The notes below the pieces were generated by a model. The model made no database searches. It was not told the origin of the DNA and worked only from the letters and a program-made list of their open reading frames with translations. Both the position numbers and the translations under genes were made by a program. A DNA stretch of 64,000 nt from Massilia violaceinigra (GTDB lineage Bacteria > Pseudomonadota > Gammaproteobacteria > Burkholderiales > Burkholderiaceae_D), in the NCBI RefSeq assembly GCF_002752675.1, contig NZ_CP024608.1, positions 6,138,001 to 6,202,000 on the forward strand, written 5' to 3'. This document shows, in pieces, positions 6,468-63,863 of the stretch; the stretch's first letter is position 1; each line of letters begins with the position of its first letter.

Positions 6468-7016
6468 ATGAAACATATGAAATCCCTGATTGCTGCTGCT
6501 GTCCTGGCAACTGCAACGCTTGGTTCGTCCGCAGTCTTCGCTGCTGACATTTCCCATACCACGCAAGCGTTGCCTGTCATCGACAACAGCGCCAATTTCG
6601 GCAGCTCCTTCGCTCAGAACAACCAGAACAACACGTTCATGGACAAGTTCAGCTTTTCGGTCACCCGCGTGGCGCATGACTTCGACGCCATCGTGACCTC
6701 GTTCACGCGCAATGCCACGACCGGCATGGACGTCACCGGTCTGAGCTTGTTCAGCAACAACGGCACCCTGATCACCACCGGGTTCCAGGAAAGCACCGGC
6801 GCCACCGATATCTGGAGCCTGCGCGCGGACAGCCTGGGCCTGGGTAACTACTACCTGCAGGTCAGCGGCAAGATGGTTTCGGGCACCGCAGGCAGCTTCG
6901 GCGGCACCGTGATGCTGGCACCAGTACCAGAACCAGAAACCTACGGCATGATGCTGGCAGGCCTGGGCGTGGTCGGTTTCCTGGCCCGTCGTCGCAAGGC
7001 AGCCAAGCAAGCGTAA
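6468..7016 (+). CDS. FxDxF family PEP-CTERM surface protein
   Basis: A 182-residue exported protein. It has a signal peptide (cleavage after AVFA, near residue 26), the FxDxF-type motif FMDKF near residue 58, and a C-terminal PEP-CTERM sorting signal: VPEPETYGMMLAGLGVVGF followed by ARRRK. Exosortase/archaeosortase-type enzymes (EpsH family) recognise this tail during export in exopolysaccharide-producing Gram-negatives. The mature part has no cysteine and is of unknown function. The ATG follows GAGG with 8-bp spacing. It is monocistronic, between a structured leader and a strong terminator. Confidence 0.9.
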   Translation: MKHMKSLIAAAVLATATLGSSAVFAADISHTTQALPVIDNSANFGSSFAQNNQNNTFMDKFSFSVTRVAHDFDAIVTSFTRNATTGMDVTGLSLFSNNGTLITTGFQESTGATDIWSLRADSLGLGNYYLQVSGKMVSGTAGSFGGTVMLAPVPEPETYGMMLAGLGVVGFLARRRKAAKQA

Positions 7017-21560: not shown

Positions 21561-21726
21561 GGAAAACTCCCTCATCTGATGAAAAAAGTGGCAGACAACC
21601 GAAGCGCCAGATTGTCTAAAAAGCCGGGCCCCGTATGTGCGGCACTTCACCGTCCGGGCCCGCGCGACGCCGCGACAAGCGCGCGCAAGCTGTTGTATGA
21701 TTTGGGAAACATTCTTAGAGCCCAGC

Positions 21727-22461
21727 ATGACCTTACCGCCCTCCCCCCAGACCGACACCGGACCGGACCCCCAGCCTGACCGGCGCAGTGCCGACCTGAC
21801 CGAACTGCTCGGCCACCTGACGACTTGCTGGGATGACGAACGACGCCTGCTGGCGCGCAAGCTGCACGACAGCCTGGGCTCATCGATGACGGCCCTGACC
21901 ATGCACCTGGCCCTGCTGACCCAGCAACTGCCCAAGGAAAAGGCGCTGCAGGACCGCACCGCCCAGATGAAGCAGCTCCTGATGACCATCATCAACACCA
22001 ACCGCGACATGCAGTTATCGCTGTGGAACGATAAGCTGGAGTTTCTTGGAATTAAATCGGCCATTGCCGAGCTGGTCAGCGATTTCGGCAAGGAGCACCA
22101 CCTGGTGGCGCGCTGCAGCCTGCCCGACGACGATGAAACCTATCCGCGCGAGCATGGCGTGGCCCTGCTGCGCGCCCTGGAAGAAGGTTTGCGCAATATT
22201 GCCGCGCATGCGAGTGCGACCGAAATCGATGTCATTCTTGACGATGGCGGCGACGAGATCATGCTCACGGTGCGCGACAATGGCGTGGGACTGGGCGATC
22301 GCTCGGGCGAGTCGTCCGGCTGCCACGGACTGCGCCTGCTGCGCGAGCGGGCCGCCTATCTGGGTGGCGCGCTGTCGGTGATGCCGGCCCAGCAGCGCGG
22401 CACGGTCATGACCCTGACCCTGCCCAAGGCGCCGGTTCCGCAAACGGCCGTCAGCCGATGA
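21727..22461 (+). CDS. NarX/DegS-type (HisKA_3) sensor histidine kinase
   Basis: A 244-residue cytoplasmic kinase without sensor or membrane domain. The HisKA_3 dimerisation/phospho-acceptor helix contains His47 in ERRLLARKLHDSLGSS. HATPase has EEGLRNIAAHA, VRDNGVGLG and a G2-type HGLRLLRERA box. Such kinases pair with NarL/FixJ regulators, none of which is adjacent. The start at 21727 is the first ATG after the divergent promoter region; upstream in-frame starts lack support. The 3' end lies 91 bp from the first PEP-CTERM paralogue, and decayed copies of this gene's 3' end recur between the paralogues. Confidence 0.85.
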   Translation: MTLPPSPQTDTGPDPQPDRRSADLTELLGHLTTCWDDERRLLARKLHDSLGSSMTALTMHLALLTQQLPKEKALQDRTAQMKQLLMTIINTNRDMQLSLWNDKLEFLGIKSAIAELVSDFGKEHHLVARCSLPDDDETYPREHGVALLRALEEGLRNIAAHASATEIDVILDDGGDEIMLTVRDNGVGLGDRSGESSGCHGLRLLRERAAYLGGALSVMPAQQRGTVMTLTLPKAPVPQTAVSR

Positions 22462-22552: not shown

Positions 22553-23140
22553 TTACGCCTTGCGCGAGCGCCGACGTTTCGCCGCACCGAGCAGTGCAAT
22601 GCCGGCGCCCATCATCAGCCAGGTTTGCGGTTCCGGAACGGCGCTGATGGCAAACTTGGTCTCAGGGGTAAAGTGATACGTGTACACGGCCCCTCCCTGC
22701 GACGACCAATCGTTTTCATACACGGAATAGAACGAGCCGCCAGCCCGGTACGAATGCGTCGTCCGCGACCACCCACTGCCGTATTGCCCATATTCAGTCA
22801 CACTATAGGTGTCGAAAGCCAGTGCGGAACCGGGCGTAAAGGACACGTTGCTCAATCCACAGCGGCGAGCGCCTGTGCAATTCATGAAGGAACTGCCGTC
22901 AATGGTAAAGGAGGTCACTTCATTGCCGGAAAAGGTCCCGTTATGATCCAGATCCTCGGCGTAGAAGCGTCCCTTGAGCACGCGGTCTGGATCGAAGTCA
23001 CCATATTGCGGATAGGGATTCATCTCGGTGGCGTAGGATGGCAGAAACCCCGAATACGCCCAGTCGAATCCCTGCACTTCGGCGTTAGCCGACAGCGCGC
23101 ACCCCATCAAAGCCAACCCACACATCATTTTCTGAATCAT
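22553..23140 (-). CDS. PEP-CTERM array protein, copy 1
   Basis: A 195-residue exported protein. A signal peptide (MIQKMMCGLALMGCALSANA) is followed by VQGFDWAYSGFLPSY, a ~120-residue beta-rich domain and a PEP-CTERM tail (AVPEPQTWLMMGAGIALLG, then KRRRSRK). Mature landmarks shared by all five copies are FTGxFxAEDxDxNGxFS-like acidic turns (LKGRFYAEDLDHNGTF), a CTGARRC cysteine pair and TPGSALAF. Two conserved cysteines in the signal segment (MCGLALMGC) are unusual. It should be sorted by exosortase to the envelope or matrix. Function is unknown. Its promoter keeps only half of the box found at the other copies. Confidence 0.88.
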   Translation of the reverse strand: MIQKMMCGLALMGCALSANAEVQGFDWAYSGFLPSYATEMNPYPQYGDFDPDRVLKGRFYAEDLDHNGTFSGNEVTSFTIDGSSFMNCTGARRCGLSNVSFTPGSALAFDTYSVTEYGQYGSGWSRTTHSYRAGGSFYSVYENDWSSQGGAVYTYHFTPETKFAISAVPEPQTWLMMGAGIALLGAAKRRRSRKA

Positions 23141-23259
23141 TGCGTCGCTCTTTCTTCAGTTATTTTACAAGTTGCAATATTATTATTGAACAACGGAGAC
23201 GTATTGACGTTTTTGCAGCAATGGTGCGGCAAGCCGGCAGAGGTAAGTTGCGGGAAGAA

Positions 23260-23335
23260 GGCTTGCACAATACGGCCACGCTCGCCGGCGCGACCGACAT
23301 CAACCTGAGCCGATACTACCGTTGGCTTGAGACGT
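23260..23335 (+). pseudogene. Decayed 3' end of the HisKA_3 kinase gene
   Basis: Between copies 1 and 2 the DNA aligns with the end of the kinase gene at 21727-22461 and its 3' flank, including shared GAGCCGAT-like and TTGAGACGTGTCATTTTCGC stretches in the same order and distance to the next PEP-CTERM gene. It has no intact frame. It is best read as duplication debris; its left boundary is approximate. Confidence 0.55.
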
Positions 23336-23362
23336 GTCATTTTCGCCACTGGCAGAAATGAC
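23336..23362. repeat. Second copy of the REP-like hairpin
   Basis: GTCATTTTCGCC-ACT-GGCAGAAATGAC matches the hairpin at 22481 with a few changes, and lies the same distance from a PEP-CTERM stop. It was probably copied together with the gene. Confidence 0.7.
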
Positions 23363-23408
23363 GGGGAGCCGACCTGTAAACGGGACCTTTGTTGCGGCGT
23401 CTGCCCGA

Positions 23409-23999
23409 TTATGCGTTACGGGAGCGGCGGCGTTTGGCCGCGCCGAGCAGCGCAATGCCGGCGCCCAGCATCAGCCAGGTTTGCGGTTCCGGAACAGCGC
23501 TGATGGCAAACTTGGTCTCGGACGTAAAGTTATGCCTGTAGACGGATCCTCCGTTCGGATTCCAATCGGTTTCGTACACAGAATAGAACGAATCGTTAGC
23601 GCGGTACGAATGCACCGTCTGTTCCCACCATCCGGTGCCCCATTGCCCGGTTTGAGTCACACTATAGGTGTCGAAATTCAACACGGAACCGGGCGTATAC
23701 GAAAAGCCGCTCATTCCACAGCGGACCGAGCCTGTGCAGTTCAAGAAGGAGTTACCGTAAATGGTAAAGGAGATCAGTTCAGAGCCGGAAAAAGTTCCGT
23801 TGTGATCCCGATCCTCGGCGTAAAAGCGTCCCTTGAGCACGTAGTCCGGATCGAAAGGGCCATATTGTGGCTGAGGGCTACTCGCGGTAGAGAAAACCGG
23901 CACAAATCCCGAGTAGGACCAGTCGAATCCCTGCACTTGGGCGTGACTCGACAGGGCGCACCCCATCAGTGCCAAACCACACATCATTTTCTTCATCAT
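23409..23999 (-). CDS. PEP-CTERM array protein, copy 2
   Basis: A 196-residue paralogue close to copy 1: signal MMKKMMCGLALMGCALSSHA, then VQGFDWSYSGFVPVF, LKGRFYAEDRDHNGTFSGSE, the CTGSVRC cysteine pair, TYSVTQTGQWGTGWW and SVYETDW, ending in AVPEPQTWLMLGAGIALLG plus KRRRSRN. I start at the second ATG of the cluster (23999) because the AGGG ribosome site overlaps the first one at 24005; the same arrangement recurs in copies 3 to 5. It is most similar to copy 1 in the C-terminal half, so the two probably separated recently. Confidence 0.88.
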   Translation of the reverse strand: MMKKMMCGLALMGCALSSHAQVQGFDWSYSGFVPVFSTASSPQPQYGPFDPDYVLKGRFYAEDRDHNGTFSGSELISFTIYGNSFLNCTGSVRCGMSGFSYTPGSVLNFDTYSVTQTGQWGTGWWEQTVHSYRANDSFYSVYETDWNPNGGSVYRHNFTSETKFAISAVPEPQTWLMLGAGIALLGAAKRRRSRNA

Positions 24000-24017
24000 T
24001 TCCATCCCTTGACATTT

Positions 24018-24042
24018 ATTTTACAAATAGAAATCGTATCAA
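24018..24042 (-). promoter_or_regulatory. Conserved upstream box of PEP-CTERM copy 2
   Basis: On the minus strand, TTGATA and TTTGTAAAAT lie about nine bases apart just before the gene. The same pair recurs at copies 3, 4 and 5. It is probably the promoter or a regulator site for the array. Confidence 0.5.
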
Positions 24043-24202
24043 TAAAAGAAAAGGCTGTAATGGCTTTTTTTGTAACATTGCAATGATGTGCGCGATGGAC
24101 AGCCACGCCGCCCCCCCATGTTGGTACAGGACGATAACGCGCAGGCGCGCTTCGCGCCGCCTGGGGCCTGCCGCATGGCGGCGCCAGGCGCGACTTGCTG
24201 TA

Positions 24203-24781
24203 TTACGCCTTGCGCGAGCGGCGTTTGGCCGCGCCGAGCAGCGCAATGCCCGCGCCCATCATCAGCCAGGTTTGCGGTTCCGGAACAGCGCTGATGGCAA
24301 ACTTGGTCTGGGCGGTGACGCCATAGTCTTGCACCCTCCCGACAGACCAGTCGCTTTCGTAGGAAGTATAGAAGCGGCGGCCTGCCTCGAATCCGCGCGA
24401 CGTACGCGACCAGCCCTCGCGCCATACGCCGTACTCGACGGAGTCGTAGGCGTAAAAGCTCAACGCGCCACCCGGCGTGAACGAAAACTCGCTCAGCCCA
24501 CAGCGGCGCACACCCGTGCAGTTCATGAACGATTCACCGTAAATGGTGAAGGAGGTCACTTCCGCGGCGGAAAACACGCCATTCAGATCGCGGTCCTCGG
24601 CGAAGAAACGCCCCTTGAGCACGTGGTCGGGATTGAATTCGCCATACTTGGGCTCAGGATTCGTCTCCGACCCCCACGACGGTAAAAATCCGGTATACGC
24701 CCAGTCGAAGCCCTGCACCTCGGCATGGCTCGACAGCGCGCATCCCATCAGTGCCAGCCCACACATCAGTTTCTTGATCAT
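24203..24781 (-). CDS. PEP-CTERM array protein, copy 3
   Basis: A 192-residue paralogue. Signal MIKKLMCGLALMGCALSSHA, then EVQGFDWAYTGFLPSWGSE, EFNPDHVLKGRFFAEDRDLN, CTGVRRC, FTPGGALSFYAYDSVEYGVW, and the tail AVPEPQTWLMMGAGIALLG with KRRSRK. Compared with copies 1 and 2 the region before the tail is shortened (SDWSVGRVQDYGVTAQTKFA). The start is the second ATG, after AGGGA. The right flank carries a stub of the NADH dehydrogenase 3' end joined to a kinase remnant. Confidence 0.88.
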   Translation of the reverse strand: MIKKLMCGLALMGCALSSHAEVQGFDWAYTGFLPSWGSETNPEPKYGEFNPDHVLKGRFFAEDRDLNGVFSAAEVTSFTIYGESFMNCTGVRRCGLSEFSFTPGGALSFYAYDSVEYGVWREGWSRTSRGFEAGRRFYTSYESDWSVGRVQDYGVTAQTKFAISAVPEPQTWLMMGAGIALLGAAKRRSRKA

Positions 24782-24801
24782 TTGCATCCCTCGTTTGATT
24801 G

Positions 24802-24827
24802 ATTTTACAAAATTGCAAGCGTATCAA
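24802..24827 (-). promoter_or_regulatory. Conserved upstream box of PEP-CTERM copy 3
   Basis: TTGATA and TTTTGTAAAAT on the minus strand, ten bases apart, about 20 bp before the start. It is the same layout as at copies 2, 4 and 5. Confidence 0.5.
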
Positions 24828-24881
24828 TAAAGCAAGGTGACTGCAATGGCTTTTCATGTGATAGTGCGACGCCCGTACGAC

Positions 24882-25077
24882 AGCGCTTCAGGGCAGCGTT
24901 AGCTGGGGCGGTGGCAGGGACGGCATCAGGCCGACATTGCGCGAGAACGACCTGGGGCCTGGGGAAGAACCGGGCGCACCGTCCGGCCGCCACGGCCTGC
25001 ACCTGCTGCGCGAGCGCGCCCGCGACTTGAGCGGGGCGCTGTCGGCGATGCCGGGCAGCCACGTGGCACGGCAATGA
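24882..25077 (+). pseudogene. Duplication scar: NADH dehydrogenase stub fused to kinase 3' remnant
   Basis: The first ~20 bp (CAGCGCTTCAGGGCAG) match the antisense 3' end of the gene at 26639-27937 and its flank. From about 24901 the plus strand reads as a decayed C-terminus of the HisKA_3 kinase: LREND in place of VRDNG, then SGRHGLHLLRERARDLSGAL in place of SGCHGLRLLRERAAYLGGAL, and AMPG for VMPA, ending at a TGA at 25075. The two pieces meet near 24900, marking a tandem-duplication breakpoint. No start or ATPase N-terminus remains. Confidence 0.75.
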
Positions 25078-25144
25078 CGCCCGGCCCGAGACGCGCCCGG
25101 CGGCAGGCAGGTCCGTTGACCTGCCCAGGAACGCAACTACCCGG

Positions 25145-25741
25145 TCACGCCTTGCGCGAGCGGCGCCGCTTTGCCGCGCCGAGCAGCGCAATGCCGGCAC
25201 CCATCATCAGCCAGGTTTGCGGCTCCGGAACGGCGCTGATGGCACTGATGGCAAACTTGGTCTCGGGTTTAAACACATAGCTGTACGAGCGCGCCCCGGA
25301 CATCGACCAATCGTTTTCGGTCACGGAATAGAATTCGGATCCAGTCCGGTACGAATTCGTATATCGCGACCACCCGCTGCCCCATTGCCCATATTCAGAG
25401 GTGTCAAAGGCATCGAAATTCAATACCGAACCGGGGGTATACGAAAACGTGGTCAGTCCGCAGCGTTCTGGCGCTTTGCAGTCCAGCTTGGATTGCCCGC
25501 CGATCGAAAAGGACGTCACTTCCGACAGTGAAAAACTGCCGTTCTTGTCGAGATCCTCGGCAAAGAAGCGCCCAGTGAACGTGGTGCTCGGATCAAAGTC
25601 GCCATCTTCTCCCCAAGGAGTCATCTCGCTGGACCAGTGCGGCGTAAAGCCCGAAAACGTCCAGTCGAATCCCTGCACCGCGGCCTGGCTCGACATCGCA
25701 CATCCCATCAACGCCAGCCCGCACATCAGTTTCTTCACCAT
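25145..25741 (-). CDS. PEP-CTERM array protein, copy 4
   Basis: A 198-residue paralogue and the most divergent in the middle: VKKLMCGLALMGCAMSSQA signal, AVQGFDWTFSGFTPHWSSE, TFTGRFFAEDLDKNGSFS, a cysteine pair written CKAPERC, and SGWSRYTNSYRTGSEFYSV. The tail is AVPEPQTWLMMGAGIALLG plus KRRRSRK. A nine-base tandem duplication just before the tail gives AISAISAVPEP. The second ATG (25741) is used as start, following AGGGA. Confidence 0.88.
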   Translation of the reverse strand: MVKKLMCGLALMGCAMSSQAAVQGFDWTFSGFTPHWSSEMTPWGEDGDFDPSTTFTGRFFAEDLDKNGSFSLSEVTSFSIGGQSKLDCKAPERCGLTTFSYTPGSVLNFDAFDTSEYGQWGSGWSRYTNSYRTGSEFYSVTENDWSMSGARSYSYVFKPETKFAISAISAVPEPQTWLMMGAGIALLGAAKRRRSRKA

Positions 25742-25763
25742 TTTCATCCCTATATCTACCGTT

Positions 25764-25789
25764 ATTTTACAAAGTTGTAATTATATCAA
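25764..25789 (-). promoter_or_regulatory. Conserved upstream box of PEP-CTERM copy 4
   Basis: TTGATA and TTTGTAAAAT on the minus strand with the same spacing as at copy 3. Confidence 0.5.
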
Positions 25790-25951
25790 TATAAGAGAAA
25801 AGATACAATGGCGCTTTTTTTAACAGCGGCGCGCTGCGCCGCCACGGCTTCAGCGCCGCTTCCCGTGAGGCGCTGGGCGCAACGACATCATGCCGGGACC
25901 TTGCGCGGCAACGGCAGGCGCTACCGGCGATGCCGGCCCGGCAAGACCCTG

Positions 25952-26530
25952 TCAAACCTTGCGCGAGCGGCGGCGTTTTACCGCACCGAGCAGCGCAATG
26001 CCGGCACCGAGCATCAGCCAGGTTTGCGGTTCCGGAACCGCGCTGATGGCAAATTTGGTCTGCTCGGTGATGTGATGGGAGTACCCGTCCGCGCCCGACC
26101 CGCTTTCGCGGTAGGTGTAGAAGCCTCTAGCTGTCCGGAAACCGCGCGTGGTGATGCTTCGTACGCCGTTGTCGTGCCGGTAGTCAACGGTGTCGAAGGC
26201 CGAAAAGGTCAACGCGCCACCAAGGGTGAACGAAAAATTGTCGACGAAACATGTGCGCTCACCCGTGCAGTCCATGAACGATTGACCGTCAATGGTAAAG
26301 GAAGTAAGTTCCGCGACCGAAAAAACGCCATTCTTATCGCGGTCGTCGGCGAGGAATCGGCCCTTGAGCACGAGATTGGGATCGAATTCGCCATACTCGG
26401 GCTGAGGATTGGACGACGACGAATACGATGGCAAGAAGCCGGTATACGACCAGTCGAATCCCTGTACTTCGGCCTGGCTCGACAGCGCGCATCCCATGAG
26501 CGCAAGTCCACACATCATTTTCTTGATCAT
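25952..26530 (-). CDS. PEP-CTERM array protein, copy 5
   Basis: A 192-residue paralogue: MIKKMMCGLALMGCALSSQA signal, EVQGFDWSYTGFLPSYSS, EFDPNLVLKGRFLADDRDKN, the pair CTGERTC followed by FVDNF instead of GLS, and TLGGALTFSAFDTVDY. The tail is AVPEPQTWLMLGAGIALLG plus KRRRSRK. It is the promoter-proximal end of the array and lies 108 bp from the stop of the NADH dehydrogenase-like gene on the same strand, so read-through from that gene is possible. Confidence 0.88.
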   Translation of the reverse strand: MIKKMMCGLALMGCALSSQAEVQGFDWSYTGFLPSYSSSSNPQPEYGEFDPNLVLKGRFLADDRDKNGVFSVAELTSFTIDGQSFMDCTGERTCFVDNFSFTLGGALTFSAFDTVDYRHDNGVRSITTRGFRTARGFYTYRESGSGADGYSHHITEQTKFAISAVPEPQTWLMLGAGIALLGAVKRRRSRKV

Positions 26531-26552
26531 TTGCATTCCTTTATTTTCAACG

Positions 26553-26578
26553 ATTTAACAAAGTTACAAACATATCAA
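26553..26578 (-). promoter_or_regulatory. Conserved upstream box of PEP-CTERM copy 5
   Basis: TTGATA and TTTGTTAAAT on the minus strand, one base off the version at the other copies. Confidence 0.45.
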
Positions 26579-26638: not shown

Positions 26639-27937
26639 TCAGTGCAGCTTGACTTGAGGCGTGCTGCGCTTGATCAGGAAGCGCGCCAGCGCCAGCACGC
26701 CGGTCCGCACATGACCGAGCACGGCTGCGTGATGCATCAGGTGCAGGCTCACATACATCATGCGCGCAAAAAAGCCTTCGACGAACCAGCTCAAGCCCTT
26801 GAGCGAGCCCATCAGACTGCCCACGGTGGTGGTCTGGCCGAACGACACCAGCGAGCCGTAATCCTTGTATTCGTAGGGCTTCGTTTGCGGCGCCTTGCCG
26901 GCCTGCTGGCGCAGGAAAGTCGCGAGCAGATAGTCGGCCTGCTGGTGCGCTGCCTGCGCGCGCGGCGGCACCATCTTGCCCTCGGCATCGACGCAGGCGG
27001 CGCAGTCGCCCATGGCGTAGATGCCGGGCGCATCCTTCACGCGCAGGAAGCCGTCGACCTCGATCTGCCCGCCCTTGGCCAGCGGCAAGCCGAGCGTGGC
27101 CAGGAATTCCGGCGCGCGGATGCCGGCCGCCCACACGCACAGGTCGGACGGGTACACATTGCCGTTCTTGTCGGTCACCTGGCCGGGCGCGATGCCCGTC
27201 ACGCGGCATTCGTTGACCACCTTGATGCCGCGTTCGTGCAGCAGCTTGAGGGCCGCGCTGGACACCCTTTCGGGCAGCGGAGCGAGAATGCGCGGCGCGC
27301 CTTCGAGCAAGGTGATGCGCACGTCCTGCTGCGGTTTGAGGTGCTGGAAGCCGTAAGTGGTGTACACCGCGCTCGCTTCGCGCAGCTCGGCCGCCAGTTC
27401 GACGCCGGTGGCGCCGCCGCCGATGATGACGATATCGACCCCGGCCGCCGGCTCGACTGCCTTGCGCGCGTCGGCCCGGGCCAGCAGTTTGAGCAACTGC
27501 AGGCGGAAGCGCTCGGCGTCTTCGGTCGCGTTCAGGGAAATCGTGTATTCCTTGGCCCCGGGCACGCCGAAATAATTCGAGGTGCTGCCGACGGCGATCA
27601 CCAGCGAGCCGAACTCGAGCGTGCGCTCGGGCAGGACTTCCTCGTCCTGGGGCGTGCGGATGGGGCCGATGGTCAGGCGCCTGGCGGCGGCATCGAGTCC
27701 GGTCAGGGCGCCGTAGACGAAGCTGAAGCCGTTATCGTGGGCCAGCATCTGGTAGGACAAGCCTTCCTGGTGGATATCGAGGGTGCCGGCGGCGACTTCA
27801 TGCAGCGAGGGCTTCCAGATGTGCGACAAGCGGCTATCGACGAGAAAGACCTTGGACGGGCCCAGCTTGCGGCCCAGTTTGCTGGCCAGTTCCAGGCCGC
27901 CCGCCCCACCACCGACAATCACTATTTCGCCGCGCAA
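26639..27937 (-). CDS. Type II NADH dehydrogenase-like FAD oxidoreductase
   Basis: A 432-residue flavoprotein with two dinucleotide folds: the FAD motif IVGGGAGGLELASKLGRKLG at the N-terminus and the NAD motif IIGGGATGVELAAEL near residue 175, followed by the second FAD contact GIYAMGDCAAC near residue 310. The C-terminal hydrophobic, amphipathic region (WFVEGFFARMMYVSLHLMHH) anchors such enzymes on the inner membrane, where they pass electrons from NADH to quinone without pumping protons. The start is a TTG preceded by GGGAGG six bases upstream. Its 3' end served as a breakpoint for duplication of the neighbouring PEP-CTERM genes. Confidence 0.88.
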   Translation of the reverse strand: MRGEIVIVGGGAGGLELASKLGRKLGPSKVFLVDSRLSHIWKPSLHEVAAGTLDIHQEGLSYQMLAHDNGFSFVYGALTGLDAAARRLTIGPIRTPQDEEVLPERTLEFGSLVIAVGSTSNYFGVPGAKEYTISLNATEDAERFRLQLLKLLARADARKAVEPAAGVDIVIIGGGATGVELAAELREASAVYTTYGFQHLKPQQDVRITLLEGAPRILAPLPERVSSAALKLLHERGIKVVNECRVTGIAPGQVTDKNGNVYPSDLCVWAAGIRAPEFLATLGLPLAKGGQIEVDGFLRVKDAPGIYAMGDCAACVDAEGKMVPPRAQAAHQQADYLLATFLRQQAGKAPQTKPYEYKDYGSLVSFGQTTTVGSLMGSLKGLSWFVEGFFARMMYVSLHLMHHAAVLGHVRTGVLALARFLIKRSTPQVKLH

Positions 27938-28084: not shown

Positions 28085-28573
28085 CTATTTGTGTTTGTCG
28101 TGCTTGTCGTGCTTACTGTGTTTCTCGTGCTTATCGTGCTTGTCATGTTTCTCGTGCTTGTCATGTTTCTCGTGCTTATCGCGCCCGTGACCATTGCCAT
28201 GCTCGCGCTCCTGCCCGTGCTCCCGCTCGCGCCCGCCGCCGCGCATCTCGCGGTAACGCGGCGCATAGGTATTGGTGTACCAGTCGTCGCGCACGAAATA
28301 CACCTGGCGTCCGCATGCGTCGTAGCGCGCGCAATGCTTGCTCCATTTTTTCATGTGCCCTGGCGGCACCCGCAAATACATCGGCTCCGGCGCCGCGCGC
28401 ACATGCCGTTCGACCAGCACCGGCTGCGTATAGACCACGGGCGGCCGACCGAAATCGCCCAGCTCGATGCGTCCGTAATACGCCGGTTGCCCGATATGGA
28501 TGCTGATATTGGTCTGGGCCTGCCCGGACAGGCTCGCGCCCAGCAGGACGGCGGCGATGATCACGCTTTTCAT
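28085..28573 (-). CDS. Secreted protein with His/Lys-rich repeat tail
   Basis: A 162-residue exported protein: signal MKSVIIAAVLLGASLSGQAQ, a ~90-residue domain (SIHIGQPAYYGRIELGDFG, then PPGHMKKWSKHCARYDACG with two cysteines and VYFVRDDWYTNTYAPRYRE) and a tail of about 45 residues built from KH-containing units (DKHEKH type, interspersed with DKH). The tail is highly charged and could bind Zn, Cu, Ni or polyanions. The globular part resembles small periplasmic proteins of unknown function in related bacteria. GAGG precedes the ATG. It stands alone. Confidence 0.8.
   Translation of the reverse strand: MKSVIIAAVLLGASLSGQAQTNISIHIGQPAYYGRIELGDFGRPPVVYTQPVLVERHVRAAPEPMYLRVPPGHMKKWSKHCARYDACGRQVYFVRDDWYTNTYAPRYREMRGGGREREHGQEREHGNGHGRDKHEKHDKHEKHDKHDKHEKHSKHDKHDKHK
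28088..28180. repeat. Short tandem codon repeats encoding the KH-rich tail
   Basis: Repeated 9- and 15-bp units (cttgtcgtg, tttctcgtg, cttatcgtg) encode KHD, KHE and KHS triplets on the minus strand. The reading frame is kept throughout, so repeat-number change would lengthen or shorten the tail without frameshift. Confidence 0.8.
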
Positions 28574-63251: not shown

Positions 63252-63863
63252 TCAGCGCTGGCGGCGCCGCGCCAGTACCAGTCCCAGCACCGCGGTCCCG
63301 GCCAGGGTCAGGGTCAGGCTGCCCGGTTCCGGCACCGGGCTGGGCGGAACGACATTTTCGAAGCGCAGATTGTCGAGCGCCAGCGCACCGTTGACGACCG
63401 GCAGGGTGCGAAACACCACGCGGTCGAAGCCGGACAAAAATTCGATGCCGATGAAGGACCCATCGATACCGTCGCCACCGGTGTCGAAGAAGGTGCTGCC
63501 GACCAGGGTATTGCCGAGGTAGGCGTCGACGAAGGTGTCATCCTCCGGATTGGTGCTCGCGTCCGCGCCGAGCCGCGTGATCACCGACGAAAACACGATG
63601 CTGCCGTCGATCTCGGGCGAGCCGTCGATGAACTTGATCGCCACCCGGCTCGGCGGCGCCGGCGAGGTCGCATACACGTCGAGGTCGAAATTGACGAAGG
63701 TCGCGCCGAGCGCCGCGTACTGGCTGCCGATCGGACCGGCAACGGCATCCTCGAAATCGATCAGGGTCGGTGCGGTGAAGCCGCCGGCGCCGATCACGCC
63801 GGCCTGCGCCGTTCCGGCCAGCAATAGCGCCGCGCAAGCCGCGGCGGTCATTTTACCTATCAT
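63252..63863 (-). CDS. PEP-CTERM surface protein near the right edge
   Basis: A 203-residue exported protein with a signal ending in GTAQA, a beta-rich body (PTLIDFEDAVAGPIGSQYAA; FVNFDLDVYATSP; DDTFVDAYLGNTLVGSTFFD) and a PEP-CTERM tail (SPVPEPGSLTLTLAGTAVLG, then ARRRQR). The body resembles secreted beta-sandwich proteins with many Asp/Gly turns, but I cannot name a domain. The sequence is unrelated to the five-copy array except for the sorting tail. It converges with the hydrolase gene (12-bp gap). The 137 bases from 63,864 to the right edge hold nothing I can name. Confidence 0.85.
   Translation of the reverse strand: MIGKMTAAACAALLLAGTAQAGVIGAGGFTAPTLIDFEDAVAGPIGSQYAALGATFVNFDLDVYATSPAPPSRVAIKFIDGSPEIDGSIVFSSVITRLGADASTNPEDDTFVDAYLGNTLVGSTFFDTGGDGIDGSFIGIEFLSGFDRVVFRTLPVVNGALALDNLRFENVVPPSPVPEPGSLTLTLAGTAVLGLVLARRRQR

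Follow-up and report, generated by a model that had tools for sequence, protein, structure and literature searches.

A five-copy tandem array of PEP-CTERM genes in Massilia violaceinigra, with remnants of flanking genes in its spacers and a predicted calcium loop in its products

To our knowledge, most PEP-CTERM proteins have no known function. Rapid paralogous expansion of these proteins in single lineages is described by Haft et al. (2006; PMC1569441), and the best experimental precedent that we have seen for a role in the matrix is PepA of Aquincola tertiaricarbonis, an exported PEP-CTERM protein considered in connection with floc formation; overexpression of PepA in an rpoN1 mutant lowered the soluble and raised the bound exopolysaccharide (PMC9850573). 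Here we describe five adjacent PEP-CTERM genes of Massilia violaceinigra in a stretch of 64,000 nucleotides (nt) on contig NZ_CP024608.1 (positions 6,138,001 to 6,202,000; hereafter the window, numbered from its first letter). Lineage-specific expansion of PEP-CTERM paralogues is already known, and this array is a new, well-documented case of it. It probably reflects a lineage-specific birth-and-death expansion of one exosortase substrate, whose products would be calcium-stabilised proteins of the surface or matrix.

The array occupies positions 22553..26536 of the minus strand and consists of five intact tandem genes, numbered c1 to c5 from low to high coordinates (Table 1), whose products in the list of open reading frames (ORFs) have 194–200 residues. 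A preliminary description of the same DNA had already proposed a five-copy minus-strand tandem array, and the five ORFs, their common motifs and the 62–74% identity to c1 bear this out; its end point, 26530, lies 6 nt inside c5, whose start codon is 26534–26536, so that the span had to be extended. Identity to c1 is 74, 72, 66 and 62% across the other four copies, and the resemblance is far beyond chance because c1 matches them within its own genome at E values from 1.8e-98 to 8.6e-77. No internal stops were found in the five copies. All five have the same signal core (CGLALMGCA), the motif VQGFDW, two cysteines spaced six apart, the acidic residues and the glycine of a loop (segment D-x-D-x-N-G-x-F-S-x-x-E) and the tail AISAVPEPQTWLM. 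The array resembles the substrates of Haft et al. (TIGR02595, PF07589; PMC1569441) in the PEP motif, the C-terminal helix, the basic cluster and the apparent signal peptide, as well as in the setting, namely an exosortase genome with many such genes, single genes with long upstream spacers and paralogue expansion. It differs from the expansions described there in being head-to-tail at one locus with remnants of the flanks, and in having two conserved cysteines in the mature domain, where the substrates of Haft et al. have very low cysteine content. Neither the array nor the loop is described in the titles and abstract starts of the open-licence literature, among the part of the matches examined, in keeping with the earlier statement that no account of this family as a tandem array was known.

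Pieces of the two genes that flank the array, a convergent histidine-kinase-like gene and a gene for a flavoprotein that we call NADH-dehydrogenase-like (NDH-like), recur between the copies. Kinase remnants are present in three of the four spacers (one of them weak) and an NDH remnant in one; the c4–c3 spacer gave Smith–Waterman scores of 116 and 49, the largest of 50 shuffles reaching 36 and 31. Since the spacers carry remnants of both flanking genes, the duplicated unit appears to have spanned the distance from neighbour to neighbour, running from the end of the NDH-like gene to the inside of the kinase gene, and this extent would place a single ancestral gene between the two.

Table 1. Features of the array and its surroundings (positions in the window; aa, amino acids)
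Feature	Position	Strand	Evidence
Histidine-kinase-like gene (HisKA_3, HATPase_c), convergent with array, adjoins c1	21637..22461	+	Pfam
c1, PEP-CTERM protein, 195 aa	22553..23140	-	ORF, alignment, PF07589
Internal histidine-kinase stretch, remnant, c2–c1 spacer	23253..23301	+	49 nt, 78%
Kinase last codons and mostly downstream flank, c2–c1 spacer	23308..23397	+	90 columns, 78%
c2, PEP-CTERM protein, 198 aa	23409..24005	-	ORF, alignment, PF07589
c3, PEP-CTERM protein, 194 aa	24203..24787	-	ORF, alignment, PF07589
Segment before c3 resembling NDH–c5 spacer (c5 upstream region)	24801..24855	-	56 columns, 77%
AT-rich upstream block of c3 (TTGATA..TTTGTAAAAT type)	24802..24827	-	
NDH-like gene 3' end, remnant, c4–c3 spacer	24881..24910	-	30 nt, 80%, E 0.002
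Histidine-kinase 3' region, remnant, c4–c3 spacer	24909..25078	+	171 columns, 73% nt, E 1.6e-24; 47% aa over 64 residues
c4, PEP-CTERM protein, 200 aa	25145..25747	-	ORF, alignment, PF07589
AT-rich upstream block of c4	25764..25789	-	
Histidine-kinase-like piece, c5–c4 spacer (weak, doubtful)	25918..25943	+	26 nt, 85%, E 3.7e-4
c5, PEP-CTERM protein, 194 aa	25952..26536	-	ORF, alignment, PF07589
AT-rich upstream block of c5	26553..26578	-	
NDH-like flavoprotein gene (Pyr_redox_2), adjoins c5	26639..27937	- (array strand)	Pfam; NDH name is ours

The same spot was compared in a genus set of 17 genomes including that of the array, 15 of which carry the kinase at E ≤ 1e-60. The synteny comparison, suggested in the preliminary description, found the NDH-like gene and the convergent kinase on either side of the spot in all 14 other congeneric loci, and the PEP-CTERM gene intact, decayed or scarred in two of them. 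In G002, the order is NDH-like gene, decayed copy, kinase remnant, one intact gene and kinase. The decayed copy lacks its front and has lost the PEP motif, with VAGPQ where VPEPQ is expected; the decayed stretch aligns to the gene-plus-kinase region of G002 with a score of 168 (shuffled maximum 29), and the kinase remnant to G002's own kinase with a score of 55, a pair compared without shuffle control. G006 has a 122-nt scar. Its first part scores 40 with c3 (shuffled maximum 24), 31 with c5 (23) and 28 with the gene of G002 (24) and has no match to c1, c2 or c4; its second part aligns with every one of the six tails, at scores of 48 to 53 where shuffles reached 29 at most. The spot in G010 holds 1.6 kb of unrelated ORFs (L064 7376–8975), which by eye resemble pieces of a peptidase and a secretion protein. 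In the remaining 11 of the 14 loci, 4–82 nt without the gene separate the ends of the NDH-like and kinase matches, the latter falling short of the full kinase; the two longest of these gaps, those of G004 and G013, matched nothing better than shuffled sequences did. A tree of three flanking genes joined G002 with G006 (support 93 and 98); the split between these two plus the M. violaceinigra genome (G000) and all others had support of 100 and 99. The simplest history compatible with these sequences would be one gain before the split of G000, G002 and G006, followed by duplication, decay and loss, which would amount to birth-and-death turnover on one branch, an ordinary kind of gene-family turnover. 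Beyond the NDH-like gene, a small minus-strand ORF (28085–28573) starts with a signal-like stretch and ends in a repeat of Lys, His and Asp (KHDKHEKHDKH...); it has no Pfam match at E 0.001, and in each of the 14 congeneric loci relatives neighbour the NDH-like gene.

The mature domain had been presumed to lie outside the described families, and indeed neither Pfam nor NCBIfam has a family model that scores over its cut-off in the mature part: Pfam models other than PEP-CTERM gave no match at E ≤ 1 in the five copies, and no NCBIfam model reaches its cut-off there, the short TIGR02595 tail model excepted. The family closest by NCBIfam E-value in all five copies, the NF038129 family PEP-CTERM protein, resembles the array proteins in length (194 positions) but scores 39.8–43.4 bits against a cut-off of 65, the matched stretches lying in the C-terminal third and ending in the tail. 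PepA is set apart in a similar manner, the NCBIfam model floc_PepA scoring 28.0–32.9 bits in the array copies against a cut-off of 80, again over stretches that end in the tail. The profile search with the mature domain that the preliminary description had called for showed that the family reaches beyond the array. With a profile built from ten mature domains (five from the array and five from genes dispersed over the genome that carries it), there are ten members in the genome itself, five of them outside the array, and members at E ≤ 1e-9 in at least 31 of 294 genomes of the taxonomic family (own genome included), representing at least 5 of 44 genera. Adjacent pairs of members occur elsewhere in G010, G118, G213 (twice) and G021; the window's five form the longest run of adjacent members among the matches listed. 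A search of the 294 genomes for the array-specific type, with six mature domains at E ≤ 1e-14, found at least five in G000, at least two in G002 (one at the locus) and at least one in G010, where the locus is on a different contig, and in no further genome among the matches listed. The family and array-type counts are lower bounds, with at most 14 and 13 candidates, respectively, scored per genome. A set of 56 relatives served for the analyses of conserved residues below; eight of them (P0013, P0020, P0021, P0033, P0034, P0036, P0052 and P0058) were omitted from a second model. A comparison of c3 with 72,556 plasmid records gave no match at E 1e-5, and a scan of named genomes matched 52 stretches, none of them encoding a relative; near relatives may have been left out of either collection.

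In a protein tree of 24 rows, which include 16 of 20 search hits (three others are the window's own copies and P0022 was left out), each of c2, c3 and c4 has a firmly supported partner from another strain or species, an entry on a 163,415-nt contig (100/100, 100/97 and 100/96), and the c4 group also takes in an entry from a Telluria metagenome-assembled genome with weaker support (92/86). Of the four entries on contigs of that length, two are named Massilia pseudoviolaceinigra. Because these copies pair across strains or species, they must have diverged before those lineages did. Three entries lack the front: two M. pseudoviolaceinigra ones of 142 aa and a third, of 108 aa, from Massilia sp. 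P8910. Within the array, pairwise synonymous divergence (dS, Nei–Gojobori) is 0.46–1.04, and the whole-gene ratio of nonsynonymous to synonymous divergence (dN/dS) is 0.25–0.51 in all 10 pairs. By region, the ratio in the 10 pairs is 0.15–0.48 in the N-terminal mature half, 0.54–1.05 in the C-terminal mature half and 0.00–0.17 in the tail. In no pair is it clearly above 1, the value of 1.05 being reached by one of the 10 in the C-terminal mature half. Overall, then, the copies are under purifying selection, which comes close to neutrality in the C-terminal mature half, and diversifying selection is not proven. The view that the diverged part reflects selection for diversity is not supported: only the C-terminal mature half is fast, and relaxed constraint explains this equally well.

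Two rival explanations turn on these data. Recombination may simply make copies of which selection keeps most folding, the five having no special role beyond, at most, dosage. The decayed G002 copy with its lost PEP motif, the G006 scar, the 11 gene-less loci and the adjacent pairs in four other genomes are all in line with such neutral duplication, but the integrity of all five copies despite a dS that is long for unselected genes makes it unlikely. Alternatively, the array may specify a diversified surface coat, in which variation of the C-terminal mature half alters recognition by phages, predators or kin. The regional contrast in dN/dS and the retention of paralogue groups across strains or species could be read in this way; yet such a coat sits poorly with ratios that never clearly exceed 1 and with relatives that have lost the gene (G006) or keep one intact copy (G002), and we regard it as rather doubtful.

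The acidic turn noted in the preliminary description is indeed a conserved feature, and can now be given a more definite character: it fits an EF-hand-type calcium loop between two predicted beta-strands. The pattern D-x-[DN]-x-[DN]-G-x-hydrophobic-x3-E, followed by a hydrophobic residue, is found in 54 of the 56 relatives, the remaining two being truncated proteins, and in none of 11,200 shuffled sequences; the residues of a Dx[DN]x[DN]G loop (D1, [DN]3, [DN]5, G6 and the acid at 12) are all in place. A profile of the 56 relatives gave 36 matches at E ≤ 1 among the sequences of the Protein Data Bank (best 1.8e-5). Calcium-binding proteins take the first three places, each aligned at the loop segment; below them come recoverins, parvalbumins and calmodulins, in part over longer stretches. 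In AlphaFold models of c1 and c5, with mean confidence (predicted local distance difference test, pLDDT) of 86.6 and 86.8, the loop joins strand 50–61 to strand 75–80 with a three-residue helical turn, and a helix-loop-helix is seen in neither. Pfam EF-hand models gave no match at E ≤ 1 in the five copies; because such matches are few and weak among the relatives and the flanks are strands, the loop is not a member of the EF-hand family. Such loops are known in several settings, strand-loop-strand among them, and those that belong to neither the EF-hand nor the calcium blade are mostly extracellular (Rigden et al. 2011; PMC3123361); the array proteins are like the strand-loop-strand Dx[DN]xDG calcium sites covered there in their loop residues, predicted flanking strands and presumed extracellular setting. 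An alternation of conserved and variable residues along the strands was sought and discarded, as there was no signal at lag 2, where the value was 0.11, compared with 0.14 at lag 1.

By eye, the N-terminus has a basic start, a hydrophobic core and an A-x-A motif with an invariant alanine. That the proteins are instead lipoproteins, lipid-anchored at the second cysteine of CGLALMGC, is highly improbable, for while L-M-G-C resembles a lipobox and its cysteine is the same in all five copies, the 52 of 56 relatives with a residue at this position have C (25), L (19), S (7) or Y (1), the alanine ending the signal-peptidase-I-like A-x-A is invariant (52/52) and the hydrophobic stretch before the cysteine is short. 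Between residue 21 and a point 30 residues from the end, 54 of the 56 relatives have exactly two cysteines and two short entries have none. Both stand at the aligned positions in 53 of 56; P0056 and P0057 lack the aligned cysteines and have two elsewhere, and P0058 is truncated. This conservation suggests that the pair likely forms a disulfide.

The exosortase-type tail is well supported: all five copies pass the cut-offs of PF07589 and of TIGR02595, and the c1 model has a C-terminal helix at 171–194 (pLDDT about 64–72). The 7.53-Mb genome has 57 PF07589 matches and two exosortases (PF09721 matches), both with an EpsI part, which exceed their NCBIfam cut-offs as XrtA (348.2 against 208 bits) and XrtB (410.6 against 275 bits). 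Two more PEP-CTERM genes lie in the window, at 6468–7016 (+) and 63252–63863 (-), and are not reported by the family profile at E 1e-9. Elsewhere in the genome, at 2252610 (L016) and 7436931 (L017), the 3,231 nt fetched at each are 99.97% identical in inverted orientation, and both contain an open frame for a PEP-CTERM protein of 257 residues.

Where all five copies have the same residue, codons differ less in the tail (0.19) than elsewhere (about 0.38; permutation p 0.005); the value for the C-terminal mature half is even smaller (0.13, from only 6 codons). The codons of VPEPQTWLM are alike in four of the five copies and one base off in the fifth, and G002 shares them with one difference; 13 other tails of the genome, which the restricted motif V[PA]xPx[ST][WYL]xM picked out at 12 fetched loci and once in the window, vary in codons. 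Gene conversion of the tails, recent ancestry or codon constraint may account for this; because the mature C-terminal half is lower and G002 shares the codons, these data do not separate the three.

The AT-rich sequence TTGATA..TTTGTAAAAT occurs three times in the genome at up to 3 mismatches, each time within the array, upstream of c3, c4 and c5; c1 and c2 are preceded by related, gapped blocks. A promoter common to all PEP-CTERM genes was considered and rejected, and we read the block as an array feature by descent. Scans for sigma-70 promoters and for terminators gave 2 and 5 hits, respectively, with 2.2 and 5.0 expected by chance. The genome has two PrsR-type regulators over the cut-off.

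The explanation that we favour can be set out as follows. The ancestor of M. violaceinigra and two close relatives would have had a single PEP-CTERM gene between the NDH-like and the convergent kinase genes. Unequal exchange, the presumed mechanism, would have duplicated a unit that began at the end of the NDH-like gene, took in the PEP-CTERM gene and the segment upstream of it, and extended into the kinase, and repeated rounds would have given five copies. Each product would be exported by its Sec signal peptide, fold into a beta-rich domain, as the models predict, with one disulfide and one strand-loop-strand calcium site, and be held in the inner membrane by the C-terminal helix and basic cluster until XrtA or XrtB releases it to the surface or into the exopolysaccharide matrix, where calcium site and disulfide would stabilise the beta-domain outside the cell. 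The five copies may provide dosage and a modest diversification of one role. By analogy with PepA of Aquincola, the products would be small matrix or surface proteins, their most likely role being that of exosortase-processed, calcium-stabilised ones.

Several observations weigh against this explanation. The c3–c2 spacer has no detectable flank remnant, the G002 kinase remnant scores 28 against the window's kinase with a shuffled maximum of 27, and a trace of the gene is found in two of the 14 congeneric loci, so that the history rests on few genomes. As for the loop, EF-hand_5 matches 3 of the 56 relatives (best E 0.25) and EF-hand_7 one (0.22), all weakly, and a stricter PROSITE-like EF-hand pattern fits only 19 of 56. 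Finally, the sigma-54 signature described by Haft et al. (PMC1569441) is not enriched in the window: 83 sites (TGGCAC-N5-TTGC, up to 2 mismatches), two of them upstream of c3 and c5, compare with 100 expected by chance. The sites thus do not show co-regulation with the exosortase regulon (PrsK/PrsR).

In the remnants that its spacers contain, the building and the loss of a bacterial tandem array can be read, and the locus, with a small domain, a predicted calcium site, five copies and relatives that have one or none, would make a handy test bed. A bolder and only tentative reading is that an unnamed family of exosortase-released beta-domain proteins, each with a strand-loop-strand calcium site, builds a calcium-dependent surface or matrix layer, the array being a local engine for duplicating and diversifying the faster-evolving half of the domain. 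If that were true, closely related Massilia-type species would differ in the layer that they present.

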